A stretch of 21,651 nucleotides of DNA from a virus: positions 1 to 21,651 of IMG/VR virus record IMGVR_UViG_3300009183_000414. One strand, 5' to 3'. This document shows, piece by piece, positions 1 through 17,652 of the stretch. Below the pieces are notes generated by a model. The model ran no database searches. It was not told where the DNA came from and worked only from the letters and a program-made list of their open reading frames with translations. Numbering within the stretch: position 1 is the stretch's first letter; every line of letters starts with the position of its first letter. A program made the translations under genes and the position numbers.

Positions 1-453
1 AGCGGTGAATGTATAGAAACTCGTATTCAAGTGTTGTCCAATTGCGTCACCTCTGATGTAACCTTCAGCGGTTATATTGTTGCCAGACGAAATATCACCA
101 TCAGCGGATATATCGCCATCAGCGGTTATATTGTTGCCAGACGAAATATCACCATCTGCGGATATATCGCCATCTGCGGTTACATTGTTGCCAGACGAAA
201 TGTCGCCATCAGCGGATATATCGTTACCAGACGAAATGTCGCCATCAGCGGATATATCGTTACCAGACGAAATGTCGCCATCTGCACTGATATTTGATTC
301 GGTTGTCATATCGCCAGTTGCGTTGATGTCGTATTTCCAATTATGGAGAATGTCAACGCCAAGATTTTCAGCTTTCACCACACCATTGATGATAAGTGGC
401 TTTTGTTTGCTTACAGATCCTATTCCGAAACCCTCTTGACTTGTTGCTCCCAT
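1..453 (-). CDS. Hexapeptide-repeat virion/tail-fibre-like protein, 3' end cut by window
   Basis: This reading frame starts at a minus-strand ATG (451-453) behind a clear GGAGA ribosome site and stays open for 151 codons to the left edge, so the protein is incomplete at its C-terminus. It begins MGATSQEGFGIGSVSK, a motif shared with the next gene upstream (536-934). Residues 55-129 are an almost perfect six-residue repeat of the type I-S-A-D-G-D / I-S-S-G-N-N or D, in which every sixth residue is Ile or Val. Such hexads fit a beta-helix or shaft, as found in phage tail fibres and spikes and in polymer-forming proteins. A role as a virion appendage or fibre is inferred from the repeat and from its T4-like phage context; no receptor-binding tip is visible because the rest lies outside the window. 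Confidence 0.75.
   Translation of the reverse strand, partial: MGATSQEGFGIGSVSKQKPLIINGVVKAENLGVDILHNWKYDINATGDMTTESNISADGDISSGNDISADGDISSGNDISADGDISSGNNVTADGDISADGDISSGNNITADGDISADGDISSGNNITAEGYIRGDAIGQHLNTSFYTFTA
67..291 (-). repeat. Coding tandem repeat, 18/36-bp units (hexapeptides)
   Basis: The stretch is built from 18-bp half units, mostly paired into 36-bp units encoding DGDISSGN(D/N)I(S/T)A. Read from the protein's N-terminus, the units run as three 12-residue blocks, then a single hexad, a block, a single hexad and a block. Neighbouring copies are nearly identical at the DNA level, which implies recent duplication or slippage, so unit number may vary between relatives. Confidence 0.85.
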
Positions 454-1018: not shown

Positions 1019-1609
1019 TTGCGAAAACAGATATATACTTATATGACATATGAAGCAAGTCCAGAAACTAAATCTTTTCAACAACAAATTTTGTATGGAA
1101 CCATACTTGGTGGATCATCTATTGTAAATCCAACACATGGTAGAAATTGTTATCTTGCAATGAGAGACAATAACCTTAATTGGCTTTCATATAAAATCAA
1201 TGAATTGAAAGATTTTTTTAAGTTAGATAGCACTACTATCAAAAAAGATAAAAACACATATAGATGTTACTCTGTCGCATATCCTTGTTTCAATCAACTT
1301 TATCGATCCTTCTATAAAGATGGTAAAAAAACTGTAACTAGAGAAATTTTAGAGTCTTTGAATGATCTTGCTTGGATGGTTTGGTATGTTGATAGTGGTA
1401 GGAAAAGTAAAAGAAAAGTGTATCTTAGAACCCAAAAGTTCGGAGAAGAAGGTTCAAATATTATTGCAGAATATTTTAATTCTTTGGATTGCACATGCAC
1501 AATAAAGAAACAAAAAGAAAGATTTGAAATAGTCTTTGACAATAAAGGCTCACAAGAATACCTCAAGACATTTTCGCATAGATTACCAAGCTTTATGGTA
1601 AATGATTAA
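1019..1609 (+). CDS. LAGLIDADG-type homing endonuclease, probably catalytically degenerate
   Basis: A protein of 196 residues if it starts at TTG 1019; ATG 1043 is the alternative start. Two LAGLIDADG helices can be seen: QILYGTILGGSSI at about residues 23-35 and LAWMVWYVDSG at about 118-127. Between them lies the usual basic and aromatic DNA-contact region. Members of this family cleave long DNA targets and spread their own gene. By eye, the acidic residue that ends each motif in active enzymes (LLGDGSI and WYMDDG patterns) is replaced by Gly32 and Ser126, so cleavage may be lost. The gene stands alone, opposite in direction to the flanking fibre-like genes, and is more AT-rich in appearance. 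It could be a decayed mobile gene or a DNA-binding derivative. Confidence 0.8.
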   Translation: MRKQIYTYMTYEASPETKSFQQQILYGTILGGSSIVNPTHGRNCYLAMRDNNLNWLSYKINELKDFFKLDSTTIKKDKNTYRCYSVAYPCFNQLYRSFYKDGKKTVTREILESLNDLAWMVWYVDSGRKSKRKVYLRTQKFGEEGSNIIAEYFNSLDCTCTIKKQKERFEIVFDNKGSQEYLKTFSHRLPSFMVND

Positions 1610-1697: not shown

Positions 1698-2156
1698 ATG
1701 ACCATGAGTACAAAGTGCAGTCTATATTATTGTGAAAATTTTCATCTTTATCGTGAATCATTTGATGAAAAATCAATTTATCTAAAAATCAATAATGAAA
1801 AAATAAAAATAAAAATTGAATTTTCATTGCAAGATTTTGCCAAAATATCTGCATGTTTCAATTTTGATTCTTTGAAAAAACAATCAGAAATTACTGATGA
1901 AGATATAAAAAATTATGTTGAAAATTCAATAAAATTAAGAGATACCGATGGAATTGGATCGCTTTTTGGTATTGGTGTATATGGATCAACTTTATTGCCA
2001 AAAGAAACCCAAATTGAGAACGGTATTAATTTCTTTGAAGAAAAAAGAAATTCAATAAAATTAATTCTAGAACAGATAGAAAACAAAAAAACATACGATA
2101 TACCATTTGGTCTAGAAGATATTATTTGTGAGAATTCCAAAGTTGTGAAAATTTAG
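1698..2156 (+). CDS. Hypothetical protein
   Basis: A 152-residue protein of no family I recognise. Lys, Ile and Glu are abundant, there is no signal peptide or membrane segment, and a Gly-rich turn (GIGSLFGIGVYG) lies near residues 85-96. ATG 1704 is an equally good start because GGAA lies 7 bases before it. The end overlaps the convergent small gene at 2122-2283 by about 35 bp. The spacer before the gene (1610-1697) holds only AT-rich sequence with two copies of GATTCAATT. Confidence 0.6.
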   Translation: MTMSTKCSLYYCENFHLYRESFDEKSIYLKINNEKIKIKIEFSLQDFAKISACFNFDSLKKQSEITDEDIKNYVENSIKLRDTDGIGSLFGIGVYGSTLLPKETQIENGINFFEEKRNSIKLILEQIENKKTYDIPFGLEDIICENSKVVKI

Positions 2157-2283
2157 ATCTCTCTTTTTCTGTAAACTTTTCTTTATATTCCCTGACGATA
2201 TTCATGTGAATTTCTTTAATTTTGATGCATTGAGTGCATCTTTCTCCACAATAATTCCCATGTTTTGCACAAAAATTATTCAT
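2122..2283 (-). CDS. Small Cys/His zinc-finger-like protein
   Basis: A 53-residue protein starting at ATG 2283 behind AAGGAAGAAG. Its N-terminus has the arrangement C-x2-H-x3-C-x3-C-x2-C within 20 residues (NFCAKHGNYCGERCTQC), which could bind one zinc ion; a charged helical tail follows. The longer frame upstream of this ATG is unlikely because the ribosome site points to 2283. The start overlaps the stop of the small gene at 2276-2386 (ATGAATAA), so the pair is probably translated together. A regulatory or nucleic-acid-binding role is possible but not shown. Confidence 0.55.
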   Translation of the reverse strand: MNNFCAKHGNYCGERCTQCIKIKEIHMNIVREYKEKFTEKERSKFSQLWNSHK

Positions 2284-2386
2284 CTTCTTCTTCCTTAAAA
2301 TAATCAAATATATCATTTACTAGTTGCATTAATTTATATATAATTATGTAAATTATGCAACACATCAACAACTCTTTTAAAAACAT
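2276..2386 (-). CDS. Overlapping 36-residue membrane-type small protein (candidate)
   Basis: An AAAGGAG site lies 5 bases before the ATG at 2386, and the frame runs 36 codons to a TAA that overlaps the next gene's ATG in the string ATGAATAA. The protein has a hydrophobic middle (LLMCCIIYIIIYKLMQLV) and an acidic tail (KEEEDE), which fits a one-pass membrane protein. Good ribosome site, coupling to the next gene and sensible composition support it, but it is short and I know no relatives. Confidence 0.5.
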   Translation of the reverse strand: MFLKELLMCCIIYIIIYKLMQLVNDIFDYFKEEEDE

Positions 2387-2445
2387 ATAACTCCTTTATC
2401 TACATACTAATAATAAACTAAAATAAATTTTTTTCAAGGTAATTT

Positions 2446-2790
2446 ATGATTAAAACAAGAGAAGATATTTGGATGCACCTCGATGAATTAAATTGGTCGA
2501 AAGTATTCATCATGTTTTCAGTTAAATACAAAAAAAAATTAAAAATTGTTGATATTGAAATTCAAAGCGTTATGCGTATTACTAAATGTGGGAAAAGTAA
2601 TGTTGATTTGGAAGATGAAATCCGTAAGGAAAAACACTTCCTCACAGAACCAATCTATCAAGAATATGAATATTCAAATTGCAATTATAAAGTAGATGGA
2701 ATGTTGACATGGAACAATGATTCAAAAAAGGTTTTTTTAAGTGGAAAAACGACAAAGAAATTAATTGAACAATTTAAAAAAGAAATATGA
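2446..2790 (+). CDS. Hypothetical protein
   Basis: A 114-residue soluble protein rich in Lys and Glu, preceded by AAGG and an AT-rich spacer. I recognise no family. Alternating hydrophobic and charged segments suggest a small alpha/beta fold. The spacer upstream (2387-2445) is AT-rich and may hold the promoter. The gene ends 25 bases before the next plus-strand gene, and the two may be transcribed together. Confidence 0.6.
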   Translation: MIKTREDIWMHLDELNWSKVFIMFSVKYKKKLKIVDIEIQSVMRITKCGKSNVDLEDEIRKEKHFLTEPIYQEYEYSNCNYKVDGMLTWNNDSKKVFLSGKTTKKLIEQFKKEI

Positions 2791-2815
2791 ATATATATTC
2801 ATAAAGGAGCATACG

Positions 2816-3094
2816 ATGAAATCTTTAATTTTGGCTTTGGTTATTTTTTTAGGCTTTAGTGGTATTTCAGAGGCACAATTTATCGTTGTGTATCCACAAG
2901 TGAGACACTACAACAACTACAATTATAATAACTATGGATATAACTATAACTATAACAATTATAATTATGGTTATAGATATAACAACTATAATTACAACAA
3001 TAATTGGAACAGATATGTAACGCCAAGTGGATATATGCCATTCAATAATCCATATTTTCAGATGGCAACACAAGGAATAGGTAGAGGCTGGTAG
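2816..3094 (+). CDS. Secreted Asn/Tyr-rich small protein
   Basis: The start at ATG 2816 is chosen because AAAGGAG lies 8 bases upstream and because the protein then opens with a typical signal peptide (Lys2, hydrophobic core, likely cleavage after SEA at residue 20). The mature part of about 72 residues is dominated by Asn-Tyr repeats (NNYNYNN-type, roughly residues 34-64) and ends in Gly-Arg-Gly-Trp. Such low-complexity Tyr/Asn proteins occur as small exported or cell-surface proteins in bacteria, and their role is generally unknown. In a phage it may act in the host envelope; that is inference. Confidence 0.65.
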   Translation: MKSLILALVIFLGFSGISEAQFIVVYPQVRHYNNYNYNNYGYNYNYNNYNYGYRYNNYNYNNNWNRYVTPSGYMPFNNPYFQMATQGIGRGW

Positions 3095-3100
3095 TCGAAA

Positions 3101-3436
3101 TTACATTCCACAACCACCAGAATACTTTTCTTCATCTTCCTTGTCGTGTTTGAACGCATGGAAAATATCAGAAATGTAAGCACGGGATACAGATATCTTA
3201 TACTCCATCCATTCTTCAAGTTGATCATCAGGAGTCAGCATTTGTAAGATCATACTCGCATCATCAATTATATCTTTCAAATTACGCATCAACATGTCAT
3301 TACCATCATCGGAAACTTCGTTTCTTAAAGTAGGAGAAGGTATAGATGTCGATGATTCACACATGTCAAAATATTCACTCTCACTTATAATGCCAGCTAA
3401 GTAAAATTTATAATTTGGATTATTTTTGTCTATCAT
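3101..3436 (-). CDS. Conserved phage protein, possible virion-associated
   Basis: A 111-residue protein with an AAAGGA site before its ATG. Residues about 54-96 form a helical segment (IIDDASMILQMLTPDDQLEEW followed by KISVSRAYISDIF) that resembles a short module I recall at the C-termini of proteins of marine and T4-like phages, with the pattern (hydrophobic)-P-D-D-x-L-x-x-W-x-x-x-K-I. The function of that module is not known to me. The C-terminus ends GGCGM. It lies on the late-gene strand next to a lipoprotein gene. Confidence 0.6.
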   Translation of the reverse strand: MIDKNNPNYKFYLAGIISESEYFDMCESSTSIPSPTLRNEVSDDGNDMLMRNLKDIIDDASMILQMLTPDDQLEEWMEYKISVSRAYISDIFHAFKHDKEDEEKYSGGCGM

Positions 3437-3481
3437 GATTATTTGTCCTTTTGATAATAACGAGTATTTTTATTGTTTCAA

Positions 3482-3838
3482 TCATTTCTTTTTTATTTCA
3501 AACTTACGGACAGAACCTTTTTCCTTATCCTTAATTCCCATCTCATGTCCAGTTTGATAATCATCATTATTTCCAAATAACTTAAATTTTTTACCATTTA
3601 AAGCATCTGTATAGCCACTATAAAATGATTCTGATATAAATGTTGTCATCGCACAAGGCTTTGCATATAAGACATCATCAGTAGTCTTGCATAAACTGGT
3701 ATTTTTAAATTGTTCTTTATCTTTCATAATTCTTGGAAATCCACTGTATTCACCTTCGAAATTCCTATGCCTGATTCTGCCGCATCCCGAAGTTACAAAA
3801 ATAGCAACAACTAAAAACAACATAATCATTTTATTCAT
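3482..3838 (-). CDS. Putative lipoprotein
   Basis: A 118-residue protein with an N-terminal hydrophobic stretch and a lipobox (VTSGC, Cys19), so it should be exported, lipid-modified and anchored in the host membrane. AGGAGA lies before the ATG. The mature part is small, basic and hydrophilic, with two more Cys that could form a disulfide. Lipoproteins in T4-like phages can serve in superinfection exclusion, lysis or receptor masking, but nothing here decides between these. Confidence 0.65.
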   Translation of the reverse strand: MNKMIMLFLVVAIFVTSGCGRIRHRNFEGEYSGFPRIMKDKEQFKNTSLCKTTDDVLYAKPCAMTTFISESFYSGYTDALNGKKFKLFGNNDDYQTGHEMGIKDKEKGSVRKFEIKKK

Positions 3839-3898
3839 ATTATCTCCTAGTCCATTAAAATTATATGATTATCATATATATGTATGGGAGAATATAAA

Positions 3899-4258
3899 AT
3901 GAACGATGAGAAAAATTTTATAAATGTAAATCAACTGAAGCAAGAATTAGAATCATATAAAAAGTTTGCATTCTCCAATAATCTAATTGCATTGGCTCTA
4001 TCTCTAACTATGGCTAATGCCACAGAAAAAATAGTAAATAGTATTAGCGAAAATTTATTGATGCCAATTATAAATTACTTTGTTGATAACACTGGAGAAA
4101 ACTGGAGAAATCTTATTTTTGTGCCAACCACGGGTCTTGAATTCGAAGTTGGAGCAATGATGAATGGTTTTTTAAAGTTCATATTCACTAGCATTATTGT
4201 CTATATCTTTTATACAAAGGTTTTTAAAAAAAATGCAAATATTCCAATGGATGAATAA
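3899..4258 (+). CDS. mscL: MscL-like large-conductance mechanosensitive channel
   Basis: A 119-residue protein, the usual length for MscL. The start at 3899 is fixed by GGGAG 8 bases upstream. The MscL plan is visible: an N-terminal amphipathic helix with YKKFAFSNN (compare FKEFAMRGN), a first membrane helix at about residues 27-60 ending in LMPIINYF (compare IMPPLGLL), a periplasmic loop, and a second membrane helix at about 87-108 followed by a Lys-rich cytoplasmic end. MscL opens under membrane tension and releases solutes. The small Gly-rich face of the pore helix is largely replaced by bulkier residues, so gating may differ. Its stop overlaps the start of the methyltransferase-like gene (ATGAATAA). 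Confidence 0.8.
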   Translation: MNDEKNFINVNQLKQELESYKKFAFSNNLIALALSLTMANATEKIVNSISENLLMPIINYFVDNTGENWRNLIFVPTTGLEFEVGAMMNGFLKFIFTSIIVYIFYTKVFKKNANIPMDE

Positions 4259-4904
4259 ACACATAATACCAAGAAAATTTGAAAAAATAAGAATAGGTAA
4301 TAACAAAGATGGAGGATATGTTCTTCCTAAAAAATGTGTTGATGAAAGTGATCTTTGTATTTCTTTTGGATTAGGAAATAATATTACTTATGAAAAAGAT
4401 TTATTGAATAGAAATAAAAAAGTTATTGGACATGATATTATTGCAAAAGAACAATATGAATGGGCAAGAAAAATGAAACTTGATACCTATGAAAAATTTG
4501 CAAATATACCAGAAGTACAACAATCCAATAAAATAGTTCTAAAGATAGATGCTGAAGGTTCAGAATGGAATTTTTTCAAAACAATGGATATGCAACATTT
4601 TGGAGAAAAAATTTCTTGCTTTGCTTTTGAACTACATCTTCATATGAATCCTAAAAAAACACCATTATCAGTTATGGAAAAGATGTTCGATACGCATTAT
4701 GTCGCTCATGTTCATGGGAATAATTATGGTGGTTGCAGGGAGCTAGTTCCAGTTGCTTTGGAAATTACACTTGCAAATAAGAAATATTTTGACAATCCAC
4801 CAATTGATATTCAAAAATATCCTATTAAAAATTTAGACTATGTAAACAAACCAAATGGCATAGAATTAGATTTGCCTTGGCTGCAGAATATTAAGGTTTT
4901 GTGA
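4251..4904 (+). CDS. FkbM-like SAM-dependent methyltransferase
   Basis: A 217-residue protein if it starts at ATG 4251, overlapping the mscL-like stop by 8 bases; ATG 4233 is the alternative. The core shows RIGNNKDGGYVLP (about 14-26), a glycine-containing motif CISFGLGNN (36-44) where SAM should bind, and IVLKIDAEGSEW (95-106), the hallmark of the FkbM family, whose members methylate sugars or other small molecules. The C-terminal third (ELHLHMNP, AHVHGNNYGG) matches the FkbM-like cellular group. In phages such enzymes may modify surface glycans or nucleotides; the substrate is unknown. The 3' end overlaps the convergent peptidase gene by 39 bp. Confidence 0.75.
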   Translation: MNKHIIPRKFEKIRIGNNKDGGYVLPKKCVDESDLCISFGLGNNITYEKDLLNRNKKVIGHDIIAKEQYEWARKMKLDTYEKFANIPEVQQSNKIVLKIDAEGSEWNFFKTMDMQHFGEKISCFAFELHLHMNPKKTPLSVMEKMFDTHYVAHVHGNNYGGCRELVPVALEITLANKKYFDNPPIDIQKYPIKNLDYVNKPNGIELDLPWLQNIKVL

Positions 4905-5513
4905 TTGACCTTTGCTTCGATATGACGCTAGTATAGGTATTTGTTGGCGAATAACCTGCCAATGTTTAGATACCCAATCTATGAATATTTTTTCAGCCCG
5001 AACAGGACCAACCTCACTTGTTGTTCCTGTTGTTTGCAATTCAAGCTCATGAGTGCATTCGTGAACAATTGTGCTGGCTATTTCAATTATAGCATCTAAA
5101 GTATCTCCGTGAGTTGCTAAATGCTTTTGAACATTTACACGAATTACATCTGATGGCTGTAATTGATTTACATCTATATCTGGAATGTATTTTTTGATAA
5201 CTGCATTGGGAATTGTATTTAACTTTTGATTCATCATAATGTCAGAACCAAATTTCATTTTGATCTTGTTTATAACGGAAGACCCTACAATTTTTTTATT
5301 TTCTGCTGAACTATAAAGACCATAAGCACCTGCTTGCAATGACGCAATGGTGCTTATGTTTTTAAGTAACTTCTGACCCGTCAATCTATCGTAAAGCTGT
5401 ACCAGTTGTACTGAATATTTGGCACTTTTATATGCAGAATCAATTTGGGTCTCATCGACATTTTCTGTGCCAATCGTAGAACCTTGCTCATAAAACCATT
5501 TTGAAAAATTCAT
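4866..5513 (-). CDS. Putative zinc metallopeptidase (HECTH)
   Basis: A 215-residue protein starting at ATG 5513 behind GGAAGGT. Residues 151-155 are HECTH within IASTIVHECTHELE, the zinc-binding helix of zincin peptidases, and Glu174 in GPVRAEKIF is a good third ligand. There is no signal peptide, so it acts in the host cytoplasm or inside the virion. The N-terminus (MNFSKWFYEQG) is a short amphipathic sequence like those that start other proteins here (12416, 16190). It might target the protein to the head, which is speculative. It is convergent with, and overlaps, the methyltransferase-like gene. Confidence 0.65.
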   Translation of the reverse strand: MNFSKWFYEQGSTIGTENVDETQIDSAYKSAKYSVQLVQLYDRLTGQKLLKNISTIASLQAGAYGLYSSAENKKIVGSSVINKIKMKFGSDIMMNQKLNTIPNAVIKKYIPDIDVNQLQPSDVIRVNVQKHLATHGDTLDAIIEIASTIVHECTHELELQTTGTTSEVGPVRAEKIFIDWVSKHWQVIRQQIPILASYRSKGQSQNLNILQPRQI

Positions 5514-5556
5514 AATACCTTCCATGAAAGTATCTATGATTCAAAATGTTAATTTA

Positions 5557-5847
5557 CTATTGAGGAATTTGAATTCCACCAGAAGATGCAACTACGATTC
5601 CACTGCCAAATTTGCTGTTGTATGCGTTTTTAATCTCATCGTCTGGCTCTCCATACGCAACAATGTGAGACTTATTTATAGTCATTTTTTGATCTTTGGC
5701 AAAAGGTGCATATGGCATCATACCAACGCCTTCTCTCGAAATAGCAAAAATCATCGGGTTCTTTAAAACAAAAGTATCATTGTCAGAAGATAAAGTTTGT
5801 GCAAGAACATCTTCACCAGTAGAAATTTTCAAATATTCAATTTTCAT
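5557..5847 (-). CDS. Conserved Sm-like (Lsm-fold) phage protein
   Basis: A 96-residue protein with AAGGAGA before its ATG. It opens with IEYLKISTGEDVLAQ and ends with EPDDEIKNAYNSKFGSGIVV. Between them is MMPYAPFAKDQK. This pattern (a strand carrying S/T-G-E-(D/E)-V, then NP, then M-P-Y-x-P-F, then E-I-x-N-x-Y-N-x-x-F-G-S-G-I) is one I recall as a widely conserved small protein of T4-like marine phages with an Sm-like barrel. Its role is not established; RNA binding is possible. It lies downstream of the capsid region on the same strand. Confidence 0.65.
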   Translation of the reverse strand: MKIEYLKISTGEDVLAQTLSSDNDTFVLKNPMIFAISREGVGMMPYAPFAKDQKMTINKSHIVAYGEPDDEIKNAYNSKFGSGIVVASSGGIQIPQ

Positions 5848-5932
5848 AATGTATCTCCTTAGAAAGATTTAACTTAAAAGAATATAACATTTATGTTTCT
5901 AATTGTAAATCATTTATTTTATTTGGTTTTTT

Positions 5933-7102
5933 CTAATTGTTGTCGTTGTCATGTTGTTTTTTGTTTTTTTTAGCATTGTAATTTTTCGTCATTGCTTTTG
6001 ATCTGCATTCCTTGCACCTTCCGCAAAGACCATCTCTTCTCGTATTGTCGGGCGAGAATCTTGACAATTCTAGAATTTGACAGCAGGAAGAGCATTCTTT
6101 TTTACCGTCAGCTATATGAGGATTGTTTTTTTGCAAGTGTGGCTTCGGTCTACTTCCTGCTATATGACCTCCCTCACGCTCACATATGTAGCGACCATTT
6201 CTGGCTATATTCTTATCGTGCGTAAGTCGTAGCGGAGTATGTTCCTCGTTGCAGAAGGAGCAATGGACTTCCACAGTGTCTTGGGCAATGTGTTTGTGAT
6301 AGTGCTTCTTGGCTTTCTTGCAGTTAAGCTCTTTGCGGAATGCAACCCAATCAAAATCACCTGTCTGTGAGCGAACAATATCAGACCAGTCACGCAGTTC
6401 TTTATCAGTCATTCCAAAAGTTTTTTCGGTGTAAACTTCGAAACTCCATCCTTGCGAGTCTGCAAACTCTTTACTGTCATTGATTTGATCGATGTTGGCT
6501 TGTTCACAAAGACGAGATTCTGGCTTAACCTCAATAGATTTATTATTGCCATCCGTGTATGTAACGAGACAATCCAAACATCGCCACCTTTCCCCTGCTT
6601 GATAGGATATTTGAGTTTGATAGGTTTTTACAGATGGGTCAGCATCTAACTCATAGCAGAGTCGCAGTTCGTATGACGATCCATAGAATACCAATCCGGC
6701 TTTTTTAGACTGGTGCCAACCTTGCCTCTTCTTGTTTTCAAACTTGTTTTCTGCATGAGCCTGAGAGGTAAGAAGGGAAAGTTTCTTTTTATGAGATAGA
6801 CCTTTTTTCGTTTTGTAAAACTCTAATTTAGCCTCAGACATTTTTTTGCGAGTTTTTGCAGATCTTTTGATGCCTTTCAGCGACCTACTGATATTTTCTT
6901 TCCGGTCTTCTGAGAATTCTACATCTTTGTGGCGTTGCTTCATGCTGCAACTTCGACACAGATATCTTCCTTTGCTAATTATTGTAGTTCTGGCTTTTTC
7001 TTTAAGAACAGTTCTCTCACACCCACAGTCCGAACAGTGCATGTCAATGTAGTGTTTCATTCCTACAGAATTCCATTTGGTATCAAATTCTTCTAGTTGC
7101 AT
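5933..7102 (-). CDS. Composite homing endonuclease-like protein (zinc fingers, NUMOD3, PD-(D/E)XK)
   Basis: A 389-residue protein starting at ATG 7102, chosen for the AAGGAG 6 bases upstream. Domains in order: a Cys-rich zinc ribbon (Cys23/26/28, Cys49/52); a NUMOD3-like DNA-binding stretch (about 66-100, SLKGIKRSAKTRKKMSEAK); a nuclease core with Glu145 in YELR, Asp177 in CLDC and Glu191-Val-Lys193 (IEVKP), the PD-(D/E)XK arrangement; a second ribbon (Cys281/284/307); and a C-terminal finger (Cys337/340/363/366) of the kind appended to phage HNH proteins. It sits just behind the capsid gene terminator on the same strand, a typical place for a stand-alone homing endonuclease. Target and activity are unknown. 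Confidence 0.75.
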   Translation of the reverse strand: MQLEEFDTKWNSVGMKHYIDMHCSDCGCERTVLKEKARTTIISKGRYLCRSCSMKQRHKDVEFSEDRKENISRSLKGIKRSAKTRKKMSEAKLEFYKTKKGLSHKKKLSLLTSQAHAENKFENKKRQGWHQSKKAGLVFYGSSYELRLCYELDADPSVKTYQTQISYQAGERWRCLDCLVTYTDGNNKSIEVKPESRLCEQANIDQINDSKEFADSQGWSFEVYTEKTFGMTDKELRDWSDIVRSQTGDFDWVAFRKELNCKKAKKHYHKHIAQDTVEVHCSFCNEEHTPLRLTHDKNIARNGRYICEREGGHIAGSRPKPHLQKNNPHIADGKKECSSCCQILELSRFSPDNTRRDGLCGRCKECRSKAMTKNYNAKKNKKQHDNDNN

Positions 7103-7198
7103 TTTTATCTCCTTAACTGTTAATGATACACGCATCATAACACATTAAATGGTTTCCCGCAACAACCTTTTTAAATAAATTCTTAAAGATGTGAGTGC

Positions 7199-7277: not shown

Positions 7278-8708
7278 TTAGATAATGAAATTCGCAATCG
7301 ACATTCTTGCGTAGAATTTAGCACCCTCACGAAGCAATTTCTTCCCGTACCTTGTCAAAATACCTTTTCTGGGGCAAAAGCTCTCTGGATCGAGAACAAC
7401 AGGTGTTTGAGTAAGAGGAACATAAGGGCAGTAGAAATATCCTGAGTCAAGATATGAATCGCCTTTATAGCCCATAAGGATTTGATTGCTTTGGAACAAT
7501 GGATCTTTATATAATCTCCAACGATTGTTCACAGTTCCGACATACTGGATGCCAAGGGAGCTAGTGAATGTTTCGCTAGGAGCAGGAGCGAAACCAGCGG
7601 TTGCGGTTTCGAAGATCGAAGCAACTTCGGGAGATGTAACGATGAAGTTAGCACCACCACGAAGGGTCTTACGATGAATAACTGAGGAAATTTCAACGAT
7701 CTTCACATAGAGAGATTCGTATTTTTCCTTGATGGTATCACCTAAGGAGGTGTTGAAGTCCCAAGCGGTTACAGTACCAGCATTTTGACGGAGGTCGGTG
7801 AGGACTTCACGATCAATTTCAAGATTGATTTCTTGAGCAAGAACTGCGGTCAATTCGGCTTCAGCGTCCAAGTTGTGTTGCGAACGAAGATCTTGTTGAG
7901 CTTCATAAGACCATACAGCCTTCAACTTACGGGTCTTGGCGGTAATATCTTCAGATTCAACAACGAGGTTGATTTCTGGAAGGTCTTGATTACATTCAAG
8001 ATTAGATTCGTAGCTCATCACTACGCTATTAGCACTAGGATCACCATCCCAAGTCAATGTTAATGCACCACTGGTCAAATCAATTGAGCCACCAGTTACA
8101 GCGGGTGAAGGTGAGCCAATTTCAGTTTTATTGAATGCACCACCAGCACTAAAATTGAATGTATATACTGCTGTAGCACCATCGTAGATAGTACCAGTGA
8201 TAGTACCAGCCAAAATTGGTCCTCGTTCAAGTGTGAAGTTGGAAGTGGTATCGCCACCTGCATCTACTAGTCTCTCGTTCTGAACGAACTGGTGAGAATA
8301 GAAGATATCAAGGTTTGCAGTACCATCAGCCTTCTGCATCAATGAATTTGCGTCATCACCGGGGAAGCCTCCATTATTATCTGCACCACGGGTAGCACCC
8401 TTATTGGATGAATAGCGGAAGCGGAGATAATAAACAAGACCAGTAGGTCCAAGCAAAGGCTGGACGGATACGATCTTATTAGCGATCAACTGTGGGTAAA
8501 TCCTACGAACCAATGGTATGGAGATTCGTTTGAATTGTGCGATGTCAGCGGTGTCGGTAGACACTTCGTTGATAAGGCGTTGGTTTTCGAGAAGAACTGC
8601 TGTGGCTGCACGAGTATTACGGTCTTCGATTCCATTGAGGAGACCAGTTTTAGCCCAGCGTCCTTCTAACTCTTTAGCTTCATTTAAAAATCTAGCATTA
8701 GCGTTCAT
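7278..8708 (-). CDS. 23: Major capsid protein, T4 gp23-like
   Basis: A 476-residue protein with AAAAGGAAA upstream of its ATG. It forms the hexagonal shell lattice of the head. T4 gp23 hallmarks are visible: SIPLVRRIYPQLIANKIVSVQPLLGPTG (63-90), KLKAVWSYEAQQDL with NLDAEAEL (261-286), and the C-terminal GYKGDSYLDSGYFYCPYVPLT (413-433) with GILTRYGKK. An extra beta-rich segment (about 165-235, rich in Thr, Ser and Gly) looks like an inserted immunoglobulin-like domain. INE at 46-48 fits the I/L-x-E rule for cleavage by the prohead protease, so about 48 residues may be removed in maturation. T4 gp23 is longer (521 residues), mostly because of a longer propeptide. The gene closes the head operon and is followed by a strong terminator. 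Confidence 0.93.
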   Translation of the reverse strand: MNANARFLNEAKELEGRWAKTGLLNGIEDRNTRAATAVLLENQRLINEVSTDTADIAQFKRISIPLVRRIYPQLIANKIVSVQPLLGPTGLVYYLRFRYSSNKGATRGADNNGGFPGDDANSLMQKADGTANLDIFYSHQFVQNERLVDAGGDTTSNFTLERGPILAGTITGTIYDGATAVYTFNFSAGGAFNKTEIGSPSPAVTGGSIDLTSGALTLTWDGDPSANSVVMSYESNLECNQDLPEINLVVESEDITAKTRKLKAVWSYEAQQDLRSQHNLDAEAELTAVLAQEINLEIDREVLTDLRQNAGTVTAWDFNTSLGDTIKEKYESLYVKIVEISSVIHRKTLRGGANFIVTSPEVASIFETATAGFAPAPSETFTSSLGIQYVGTVNNRWRLYKDPLFQSNQILMGYKGDSYLDSGYFYCPYVPLTQTPVVLDPESFCPRKGILTRYGKKLLREGAKFYARMSIANFII

Positions 8709-13001: not shown

Positions 13002-15527
13002 TTAACTCATTGTGCTATCATCACGATCTTCGTGATCTTGTTCTATTCCATAATTTATAATTTCAAGATTGTACTTTTTCAAATCATTTTCTTCAGCATC
13101 TGGAATTTCATCTGTTGCTGGTGCTTCACCTTCTGGTGGTGGAGTTTCACCTTCTGGCGGTGGTGGTGTTTCGCCTTCTGCTGGCGGTGCTTCGCCTTCT
13201 GCTGGCGGTGGAGCTTCTGCACCAAGATCTGGAGTTGGACCACCAGCTTCAGACCCTATTTCTTTTCCTGCTTCTTCTGGAGTAGGAACACCAACGCCTA
13301 GCAATTGAGGATTTTGAGACATAATCTGAATTTTTAGATCTTCTAATTTTTGCAATTTAAGTCTGCTCAACATCATAGATGTATCTTCTTCTGAATACAT
13401 TAAAATTCTTGTATAGATATCATAATCTGACATTAACAAACCGCTTTTCAAAGATCCAGCATTTGTAAGTCTTGCTGTTTTTACTTCGGCTCTTGATAAT
13501 TCTCTCCAATCTGATGGTGCGGTCATACGAACTTTTAGATCTTTAAACATTTCTTGTGGGAATCCACGAAGCTCAAGATGTCTTTCACATATATCTAAAA
13601 TTCCATCTTCGAAGTTTGATTGAAGTCTTTCTATCATTCTTGCAAATTTAACATCTTGTGCTGATAATGTAATTCTAGTTGCATTGACATCTTCGCTTGA
13701 AAAATAATTTTTTGGGAAGTTCAATGAAACAAATAATTTATTTCTAAAATAAACAGCATCATCGATTTCTCCAAGGTTTTGTGCGCCCGGAAGAGTTTCA
13801 ATTCTACTATTTGCATTTGGACGAACTGGAACCCAATAGTCTTCATCTTGTGCTGGAGGTTGCCATCTTTCTTCTACAAGGTTTGCACCTGTTGTTGCAC
13901 GATTTCCAGCAGTTTTTCTTTTACGAAATTGATCTTTTAATCTTTCCATAAAAGCTTCTGCTTTAAATGGTGGAAGTTGACCAACATCTATATAAAAAAC
14001 TCGTCTCTCAGGCGCCCTTGTAAGCCTATATACCACCATTGCATCTTCCATAAGTCTTAATTGATGTGCTGGTCCTCTAGCTGGTTCGATAAGAGATTGT
14101 CCGTAAGGATAAAAATTTCTTCGGTCATCTCCAATTCTCATATGTAAAACTTGGGATGGTGCAAATCTTATTGCTGTAGATTGGGATAATTCTGCATCAC
14201 TTTGTTGTGATACATCTCCTCTTGCCAATGCTTGATAGTCTGGACCTTCTTTTGATTGTTGGAATTCAATTAATTTTCCTTTAATTGTTTCAATTCGATA
14301 CATTGTCTCTGGTGGCAAAGGTATAATTTTATAGATACCCTCAGCTGGTTTATCTGGATTTATAACTATTTCAAAAAATTTGTCACCATGAACAATCATA
14401 TCTTTGAAGTACACATAACCATATCTGTTAAGATTTAACATTTTTCGATGAAGAAGCAAAAATTCAATTTCTTTTCTAACTTCATCATTTTTGCACTCAA
14501 TAGTCATGATATTACCTGTATCATTCTTTTGGCAATTATGAAGGATTACAGAGTCTGTTGCAAAGCACAAATGTTTCTCAACTGATATATCATAAACATC
14601 CATTTCTGGACCTTCGGACACACTAACAACTTTTCTTACCGTTGCTCTCCTGTGCAATTTTCTAATTTCTTTTAGTGTGAATCCGTTCCTTTGAATCATA
14701 CTATCGATGGTATTCCAATCATGTTCCATTATTTTGGCGATTTGTCTTACTGGAATGTCGCTGCCAATTAGTCTGCAAGCTCTATTTAACTTTTCATATT
14801 CTGGAGTTATTTTGCCACTTTTCCAATCATCTACAAATTGTCGTTCATGAATCCATCCTTTATCAAATGAAAATATTCTTGGAAATTGATTTACTCTAAG
14901 ATTTGTTAAATTTTGATTGGCTGAAATGCGATAAAATGGCATTAATTCATCGCCAAATTCAAGTTCTCCGCAAGGAATCCATTCGCCATTGCGTTTTAAA
15001 ATTCGATGATCTGGTGTTGCATATATGATTTTTCCATCATCTAGAACAACTTCAACAGTTTTGGCTTTCTTTACAAGTCTTGGAGCAAATGCCCATCCAA
15101 GTGTGTAATCTCTTTTTTCTAAGTTATAGCAATAAACTAAAAATCTTTCATTGGCTTTATTTTTTGTGAGCCATTCTATAGTTTGGTAGCCATGTGGAGT
15201 TGCAATCAATGTATCTCCGCTGACGCATGCTTCATCAGCGAATACGGTCATAGCCATTTCAATTTCTGGTAAATTTCTTAGTCTTTCGTATTCTTTATAT
15301 CTTGAAGATCGATTACCAAGTGTGGTAGTATCGATCATATCATAGGTTTGACGAAGGTTGATGTAATTACTTGGACCTTGTCCAGCAACTAATTCGCCAC
15401 CAGTTTGCAAAGCATCAGCCTGAGAAATCCCTGCACCAGAAAATTTAGAAGAGTCTTTTCTTTTTGCTAGTGGGTCTTTTTCTGTGGCGTATGTAAATAG
15501 CTTAAAAAAATCTGACCAAAGTGTCAT
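13002..15527 (-). CDS. 20: Portal (head-neck connector) protein, T4 gp20-like, interrupted by an intein
   Basis: An 841-residue precursor with a GAGGA site before its ATG. The portal ring at one head vertex nucleates assembly, docks the terminase and passes the DNA. The gp20 family is seen in EIEMAMTVFADEAC, ECKNDEVRKEIEFLLLHRKM, RYGYVYFKDMIVHGDKFFEI, the MEDAMVVYRLTRAPERRVFYIDVG region, and KNYFSSEDVNATRITLSAQDVKFARMIERLQ. Residues 101-331 are an intein. After its removal the protein has 610 residues, and the join is FADEA-CQKND, which restores the family sequence. The C-terminus has a Pro/Glu/Gly repeat tail not usual in gp20. It heads the minus-strand block and is followed one base later by a zinc-ribbon gene. 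Confidence 0.93.
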   Translation of the reverse strand: MTLWSDFFKLFTYATEKDPLAKRKDSSKFSGAGISQADALQTGGELVAGQGPSNYINLRQTYDMIDTTTLGNRSSRYKEYERLRNLPEIEMAMTVFADEACVSGDTLIATPHGYQTIEWLTKNKANERFLVYCYNLEKRDYTLGWAFAPRLVKKAKTVEVVLDDGKIIYATPDHRILKRNGEWIPCGELEFGDELMPFYRISANQNLTNLRVNQFPRIFSFDKGWIHERQFVDDWKSGKITPEYEKLNRACRLIGSDIPVRQIAKIMEHDWNTIDSMIQRNGFTLKEIRKLHRRATVRKVVSVSEGPEMDVYDISVEKHLCFATDSVILHNCQKNDTGNIMTIECKNDEVRKEIEFLLLHRKMLNLNRYGYVYFKDMIVHGDKFFEIVINPDKPAEGIYKIIPLPPETMYRIETIKGKLIEFQQSKEGPDYQALARGDVSQQSDAELSQSTAIRFAPSQVLHMRIGDDRRNFYPYGQSLIEPARGPAHQLRLMEDAMVVYRLTRAPERRVFYIDVGQLPPFKAEAFMERLKDQFRKRKTAGNRATTGANLVEERWQPPAQDEDYWVPVRPNANSRIETLPGAQNLGEIDDAVYFRNKLFVSLNFPKNYFSSEDVNATRITLSAQDVKFARMIERLQSNFEDGILDICERHLELRGFPQEMFKDLKVRMTAPSDWRELSRAEVKTARLTNAGSLKSGLLMSDYDIYTRILMYSEEDTSMMLSRLKLQKLEDLKIQIMSQNPQLLGVGVPTPEEAGKEIGSEAGGPTPDLGAEAPPPAEGEAPPAEGETPPPPEGETPPPEGEAPATDEIPDAEENDLKKYNLEIINYGIEQDHEDRDDSTMS
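13117..13226 (-). repeat. Coding repeat: Pro-Glu-Gly tail of the portal protein
   Basis: Five near-copies of an 8-10 residue unit of the type E-G-E-(A/T)-P-P-P-A/P occur in a row near the end of the portal protein. The DNA copies alternate CTTCTGGTGG and CTTCTGCTGG. The tail is flexible and acidic and is probably not part of the ring fold. Confidence 0.75.
14535..15227 (-). other. Intein inside the portal protein (231 residues, HTH-like insert)
   Basis: The splice block A is C-V-S-G-D-T-L-I-A-T (Cys101 of the precursor), block B is GKIIYATPDHRIL with the T-x-x-H motif (Thr171, His174), block F is MDVYDISVEKHLCFA (309-323) and block G is SVILHN followed by Cys332. All the residues needed for standard class 1 splicing (Cys1, block B His, terminal His-Asn, +1 Cys) are present. 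Between blocks B and F lie about 100 residues with no LAGLIDADG or HNH motif. They contain a helix-turn-helix-like stretch at about 258-286 (DIPVRQIAKIMEHDWNTIDS then MIQRNGFT). Splicing should be active. Homing, if it occurs, would need an endonuclease supplied from elsewhere. Confidence 0.93.
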
Positions 15528-17280: not shown

Positions 17281-17652
17281 TTAATCATCGTCTTCATCGT
17301 CATCATCCCAATCATCATCATCATCATCATCGTCATCATCGTCATCATCGTCATCATCGTCTTCATCGTCATCCCAATCATCTTCATCGTCATCATCGTC
17401 ATCTAAATCGTCATCTTCATCTAAATCGTCATCATCATCATCAAAATCATCATCATCTAAATCATCATCATCTAAATCATCATCATCTAAATCATCATCA
17501 TCATCATCCCAATCATCATCTTCATCGTCTTCATCGTCTTCATTATCGTCATAGTCATTATCATATTTCCAACTCTCTTTTTCTGAGAATTCTTTTGTAT
17601 CCCATTCATCATACTGAATGAACAAATTGTTTTTATTTTTTTTATGATTCAT
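17281..17652 (-). CDS. Extremely aspartate-rich acidic protein
   Basis: A 123-residue protein with AAAAGGATG before the ATG. The first 30 residues are ordinary and mixed (MNHKKNKNNLFIQYDEWDTK). The remaining 90 or so are mostly Asp, broken at intervals by Trp, Leu, Phe or Glu (DDDDL and DDDDW units). It must carry a very large negative charge and be disordered without bound cations. It could bind metal ions or basic proteins, or act as a DNA mimic, but sequence alone does not decide this. The DNA is a GAT/GAC triplet tract prone to length change. A perfect hairpin follows the stop. Confidence 0.65.
   Translation of the reverse strand: MNHKKNKNNLFIQYDEWDTKEFSEKESWKYDNDYDDNEDDEDDEDDDWDDDDDDLDDDDLDDDDLDDDDFDDDDDDLDEDDDLDDDDDDEDDWDDDEDDDDDDDDDDDDDDDDDWDDDDEDDD

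Follow-up and report, generated by a model that had tools for sequence, protein, structure and literature searches.

The window, by which we mean the whole 21,651-nt stretch analysed here (positions 1 to 21,651 of IMG/VR record IMGVR_UViG_3300009183_000414), comes from a large T4-like phage. A gene for a 389-residue TnsA-type nuclease, probably a homing endonuclease, lies on its minus strand at 5936..7102, with the ATG at 7102-7100, the last sense codon ending at 5936 and the stop codon at 5933-5935. An earlier note on this DNA had placed the gene at 5933-7102, which is correct, but the strand needed correcting to minus; the plus strand at these coordinates is full of stops. An alternative in-frame ATG upstream gives a 401-residue form; the start of the 389-residue form has the context AAGGAGATAAAAATG. 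The gene is next to the capsid gene, as the note had also said: directly upstream is the gene for the major capsid protein, of the Gp23 family (7278..8708, minus strand; PF07068, 293 bits), and the nuclease gene begins 175 bases behind its stop codon. Downstream comes a phage gene of family phrog_527 (5557..5847, minus strand). Ahead of this displaced gene, at the 3′ end of the insert, is a sigma-70-like promoter, TTTACA-17-TATATT (5881..5909, minus strand), which matches the consensus at 10 of 12 positions in a region that overall has no excess of such sites over shuffled sequences.

A terminator scan of the region reported none, although on inspection by eye the sequence behind the capsid gene shows a stem-loop with T's after it. 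No tRNA was found in the neighbourhood of the nuclease gene. The nuclease gene lies outside any intron or intein, since its empty site, described below, falls between two intact genes and no Rfam family, group I introns included, was matched in the window at the gathering threshold; an intron-borne gene was rejected on the latter ground. Elsewhere in the window are a Gp20 portal protein with a Hint intein (13002-15527, minus strand; PF14890, 39.2 bits), a LAGLIDADG_2 homing endonuclease (1019-1609, plus strand; 103.6 bits), a protein with tandem 'DISSGN(N/D)ITADGDISADG'-like repeats (1-453, minus strand) and an ORF consisting mostly of aspartate repeats (17281-17652, minus strand).

Residues 124-247 of the nuclease (6362..6733, minus strand) form a PD-(D/E)XK core, which the note had proposed with Glu145, Asp177, Glu191 and Lys193 in the positions where we also find them, and which profile, fold and conserved residues now identify as being of the TnsA type. 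It matches PF08722 (TnsA-like endonuclease N-terminal) in Pfam at 29.2 bits against a curated cut-off of 26.5, a margin of just 2.7 bits, and some relatives (L081, L048) fall slightly under the cut-off. An AlphaFold2 model, made with 18 sequences from the window and the loci, gives core residues 131-240 pLDDT values of 89-97. The best three PDB chains found by Foldseek are all TnsA (E 1.9e-6), and VIA-align superimposes the core on TnsA with Z 12.6 over 141 residues (rmsd 10.4), the next protein having Z 7.4. In the BFVD fold search the entries nearest to the core include the Moonbeam endonuclease, head completion nucleases and TnsA-N phage proteins. The A3 profile, when compared with PDB sequences, returned mostly ubiquitin chains, which were taken as spurious and dropped; the same list held two TnsA fusion entries (E 2.3e-4 and 5.2e-4).

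The four key residues are invariant across the 18-sequence alignment and are kept in 90 of 94 distinct cores; among the other four, the Asp position is Glu in L125 and Ala in L216, and the remaining two are only partly aligned. In the window protein the motif has LD in place of 'PD'. The note had let its reading hang on two points, both of which were run: the core was not assigned to a non-nuclease fold, and its acidic residues are unsubstituted in close homologues. Purifying selection has acted on the core, with dN 0.038 and dS 0.386 (dN/dS about 0.10) between the window and its relative L018 over residues 1-262.

Zinc ribbons had been proposed at both ends of the protein, and Cys/His ligand sets are present at each. 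The N-terminal ribbon (residues 18-57; 6932..7051, minus strand) has C23, C26, C49 and C52, and is recognised from its sequence, from model strands and a helix at pLDDT about 68-80, and from its likeness to the second ribbon. The latter (residues 273-316; 6155..6286, minus strand) has C281, C284, H288 and C307, all invariant in 42 sequences; because only these ligands are kept, it is a CCHC ribbon and no plain copy of the first. The two align with a local score of 65, where shuffles average 21.8 (sd 4.2), and a score as high was reached by 0 of 20,000 shuffles, or by 1 of 20,000 with the Cys residues held fixed. A profile of the C-terminal ribbon finds the N-terminal one well only in the window and L002 (E 0.03-0.8 in the other relatives listed). 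The likeness that led the note to suggest a binding module duplicated around the nuclease is thus upheld, but not the duplication itself: the two ribbons look like a combination of ribbon-type modules, because the N-terminal part and the C-terminal module shift independently among relatives, in which the N-terminal part may be absent.

Between the first ribbon and the core is a helical region (residues 65-117; 6752..6910, minus strand), modelled as helices of low pLDDT, with a NUMOD3-like motif. Its best-matching stretch, residues 77-91, scores 10.4 bits against a small NUMOD3 profile made from relatives, as high as in 0 of 1000 shuffles. Pfam NUMOD3 has no match in the window protein at E<=10; the relative L008 passes its cut-off with 26.8 bits. 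What remains of the NUMOD3-like helix called earlier is therefore a motif-like stretch found by a local profile, and not a Pfam match.

The second ribbon and the zinc finger that follows it make up what we term the C-module. The finger (residues 330-381; 5960..6115, minus strand; pLDDT about 90), with C337, C340, C363 and C366 likewise invariant in the 42 aligned sequences, is the HNH-type accessory finger of the note and is of a kind seen in EndoVII/HNH nucleases. In 42 of 42 members the ribbon-finger pair matches phrog_1035, an EndoVII family, and Hpy99I is the best, though weak, structural match of the finger (Z 5.6 over 46 residues). A Pfam search of the window C-module returned no family, and a fold search with it gave no match at E<=0.001, the best being the Stc1 tandem zinc finger (E 0.013) and Hpy99I. 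An EndoVII/HNH nuclease was disfavoured as a reading of the whole protein, the EndoVII PHROG models reaching only ribbon and finger (residues 279-382 and 327-382). Pfam reports no HNH catalytic family for this protein. The order of the five parts, for which the note knew of no described enzyme, is not unique and recurs at least in L002, L154, L137 and L103.

The site occupied by this gene is empty in a close relative, L007 (IMGVR_UViG_3300021470_000072), where the capsid gene is followed directly by the phrog_527 gene, whose start codon comes directly after the empty site. Compared with L007, the window has 1,244 extra bases (5862..7105), inserted precisely after the ribosome-binding site and before the ATG of the phrog_527 gene, with a copy of TAAGGAGATA at either end (7106-7115 and 5852-5861, minus-strand reading). 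Over the 3 kb that adjoin the junction on its capsid side the two are 96-100% identical in each 200-base bin, and their capsid proteins are 99% identical; the L007 sequence is one short contig of 5,582 bp, and no other contig in viral_contigs matches the empty junction exactly. In L008, with flanks 97% and 94% identical to those of the window, a different TnsA-type gene occupies the same spot. The gene of L008-L011, where the flanks are near-identical to the window's, has two N-terminal ribbon-like Cys motifs and NUMOD3 and is without the C-module. A single site is thus empty in L007 and filled by different genes in the window and L008.

Exchange is also seen within the gene. The phages L017 and L018 are about 96% identical and differ in exactly the block that encodes the front and core of the nuclease. 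Through this block L018 shares 88-94% of bases with the window, and in the near flanks mostly 72-83%; within a few codons, at residues 265-270, it then crosses sharply from a window-type front half to the C-module of L017. In the L017 gene itself, that module follows a Mom-like front and a different core.

We conclude that the window gene is likely to be a free-standing homing endonuclease with a TnsA-type PD-(D/E)XK catalytic core. The support, which is at the level of sequence, consists of the intact core and the purifying selection on it, presence and absence at one site, replacement by other TnsA-type genes and the exchange of modules, together with the link of the C-module to capsid genes and the intein-borne TnsA-type core, both described below; the empty site, replacement and module exchange among related phages are behaviour that fits the homing endonuclease envisaged in the note. 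The zinc ribbons and NUMOD3-like helices would wrap a long target near the junction of the capsid and phrog_527 genes, and the core would cut, in a metal-dependent manner, the DNA of a gene-less phage infecting the same cell. The break would then be repaired with the carrier's copy as template, so that the gene, plus some flanking DNA, enters the recipient; the carrier would be spared because the insertion splits the target site.

Could the gene instead be kept for the phage's own benefit, cutting the DNA of a competitor or of the host, or serving in packaging as T4 gp4 does, and not be selfish at all? It sits in the head module, and its core is close to phage head-completion nucleases both by profile (phrog_218) and by fold. 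We nevertheless consider this improbable, since the gene is absent from the L007 locus with its 99%-identical capsid protein, unrelated versions replace it in sister phages, and some phages with such genes have a second TnsA-like domain elsewhere. In the 10 records searched for such domains there are 2 TnsA-like matches each in G002, G006, G007 and G008, both at the same locus in G007.

The association of this probable homing endonuclease gene with the capsid gene extends to its relatives. A scan of viral_contigs with the C-module gave 67 relatives, and all 67 loci have a capsid homologue in the fetched flank. Across all loci retrieved up to that point, the TnsA-type core and the C-module are joined in 65 distinct proteins, and for 61 of these a same-strand capsid gene lies upstream in the flank at a median gap of 166 bases (range -53 to 2489). 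As for the remainder, L119 overlaps the capsid gene by start choice, L165 and L150 have the capsid gene on the other strand, and L234, an apparent exception, has it about 500 bp upstream, just beyond the fetched stretch. Capsid homologues below about 40% identity (for example L136, L148, L152, L180, L182, L198-L204 and L211) are identified solely by a BLAST comparison with the window capsid.

Scans that did not start from the C-module were tabulated by the best plus-strand ORF per locus only, with cut-off ORFs left out, so that minus-strand TnsA-type genes at the capsid locus, such as L193, fall outside the table. In a core-only, locus-blind scan, the capsid gene was in the flank of every distinct uncut protein that has the module (39 of 39) and of 0 of 10 that lack it (Fisher 1.2e-10 for distinct proteins and 2.3e-7 for 33 clusters at 70%, both of which ignore shared descent). 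A scan with the Mom-like domain found it for 22 of 22 with the module and also for 8 of 28 distinct proteins without it, the capsid locus being a general hotspot. Retrieval by capsid protein gave 80 loci, among them 59 that extend 1.5 kb or more downstream; a TnsA-type core lies within 2.5 kb in 38 of the 59, many of the 38 being near-copies of one another.

In these scans, then, the C-module appears only beside a capsid gene. It is not required there, because TnsA-type genes that lack it sit at the same locus (L008-L011, L065, a minus-strand family that includes L039, L078, L124 and others, and phiXF1), nor is it tied to capsids in principle, because related ribbon-plus-finger units occur in EndoVII-type nucleases (phrog_1035). 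Shared descent alone could keep C-module genes at the capsid locus. In a tree of the cores, which has a weak root and long branches and was used solely for this placement, the C-module falls on two separated lineages, one the main clade and the other L020 with L008 and L065. A search for a prophage or bacterial source of the C-module gave 15 genome_contigs stretches that fit a pattern and 0 that are relatives. The 595-kb megaphage LR756511 has a capsid protein at 77.6% identity, yet the 5 kb that follow it contain no TnsA-type gene. Hits to the window protein among GenBank phages came from 6 records, representing 4 distinct phages, and no hit reached 80% coverage.

Other arrangements were also seen at capsid genes. 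Opposite-strand TnsA-type genes with repeated YGV-type motifs lie right behind the capsid gene in L039 (7503-8612, minus strand), L078, L124, L146, L147 and L232, and some of this set appear to have overwritten a C-module gene. In L017 (7576-9120), L031, L057, L082 and others, the gene at the capsid locus has an N-terminal Mom-family domain (PF25680, 40.4 bits in L017) fused to the TnsA-type core. Mom-like domains are also present on other nuclease-like proteins elsewhere and in phage 'Hef' genes, one of which adjoins the capsid gene of Caulobacter phage Cr30.

A regulatory role has also to be weighed, in which the C-module would act on the capsid gene like CapR of phage satellites and the nuclease would be secondary. 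Eight distinct ORFs have the module but not the core, all of them beside the capsid gene, and there is a precedent in CapR, which is described as related to the DNA-binding domains of homing endonucleases (PMC10448857). Several of the stand-alone forms, however, look like debris of overwritten genes (L039/L117, L286, L125) and the core is under strong purifying selection, so that this explanation seems very improbable. A stray TnsA subunit of a Tn7-like transposon can scarcely be entertained: fold and profile do match TnsA, but 0 of the 10 window ORFs scanned (of 62) match a transposase or are relatives of TnsB or TnsC, the homologues are fusions with NUMOD3, Mom-like and zinc modules, and the NCBIfam TnsA_like model gives 28.6 bits, far below its cut-off of 110.

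A TnsA-type core is also found within an intein. In L210 (IMGVR_UViG_3300003155_000137), a 1583-aa PolIII-alpha protein (1997-6748) is split by an intein (PF14890, Intein_splicing, 52.6 bits; TIGR01443, 19.6 bits against a cut-off of 15.6). The inner part of an intein is the usual seat of its homing endonuclease, and here it comprises a zinc-ribbon-like stretch and a TnsA-type core that scores 24.3 bits with PF08722 (just below 26.5), 37.1 with NF033179 (cut-off 110) and 66.1 with the A3 profile. The case is that of one contig, because the search gave just L210 itself (L294, the same contig) and the free-standing L295. In L295, from another phage, a NUMOD-like/TnsA-type gene (3632-4354) is wedged between two other genes, the next one looking tail-sheath-like by eye.

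For the probable homing endonuclease of the window, the conserved C-module would most likely give part of the recognition of the capsid locus, and would most likely also serve as a homology arm during the replacement of such genes by one another. More speculatively, there may be an unrecognised subclass of phage TnsA-type homing endonucleases, free-standing and intein-borne, in which a swappable ribbon-plus-finger serves as a portable 'capsid address' captured by different cores and N-terminal modules (ribbon-NUMOD3, Mom-like or none). The Mom-like versions could then join a DNA-modifying domain to a cutter and so mark their own genome. We put forward this wider scheme tentatively, as possible but doubtful. 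The likely assignment of the window gene itself would add a TnsA-type branch to the homing endonucleases and would link the TnsA nuclease fold across transposons, phage head assembly and selfish genes. Empty, filled, swapped and chimeric alleles in close phages offer a natural series for how modular DNA cutters choose and change their targets, and the capsid-gene neighbourhood as a landing place bears on the exchange of capsid genes between large phages.

How does this protein compare with known systems? A literature search by title and start of abstract, with few subscription journals covered, found no paper on TnsA-type homing endonucleases, and one for Mom with homing endonuclease found nothing. 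With TnsA of Tn7 (1t0f, 1f1z) the window protein has in common the nuclease fold and the acidic/Lys active-site pattern of the superfamily; in place of transposon partners, none of which was seen in the 10 ORFs scanned, it has ribbons, NUMOD3-like helices and a finger. The T4 gp4-type head completion nuclease (phrog_218), which has been linked to TnsA or T7 EndoI (PMC1189080) and termed TnsA-like (PMC7824862), likewise has a TnsA-type core, but as a stand-alone domain of about 150 residues, without targeting modules and with a structural or packaging role. An identity with gp4 was rejected for the five-part, 389-residue window protein; the gp4-size relatives L212, L214, L217 and L218 are without the C-module.

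Nearer in construction is gp26 of Bacillus phage Moonbeam, annotated 'endonuclease' (AIW03424.1), which is the best BFVD match (E 9.1e-12; 25% identity to the window protein) and has the Cys-pair motif, NUMOD3 and TnsA-type core. It differs in lacking the C-terminal ribbon and finger, and has no capsid gene annotated within 4 kb on either side. The PD-(D/E)XK homing endonucleases, such as I-SspI, and the EDxHD enzymes share with the window protein both nuclease superfamily and homing lifestyle; I-Bth0305I (3r3p), however, aligns with the window core at Z 5.7 only, far below TnsA. These two are among six homing-endonuclease families (PMC3943268; PMC6083498) and are treated as group I intron enzymes (PMC3943268), while intronless homing and marker exclusion by free-standing genes have been reviewed separately (PMC2988022). 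For the T5orf172 and IPA-HNH types, phage homing genes have been described that lie near capsid genes, have zinc fingers of modular build and swap domains (PMC10448857). The T5orf172 genes, with CapR/DUF723 zinc fingers and a position near capsid genes in 31% of neighbourhoods, resemble the window gene in their modular fingers, domain swaps and capsid proximity; their nuclease is of GIY-YIG type, in contrast to the TnsA-type core of the window protein, a core that the available text of PMC10448857 does not describe.
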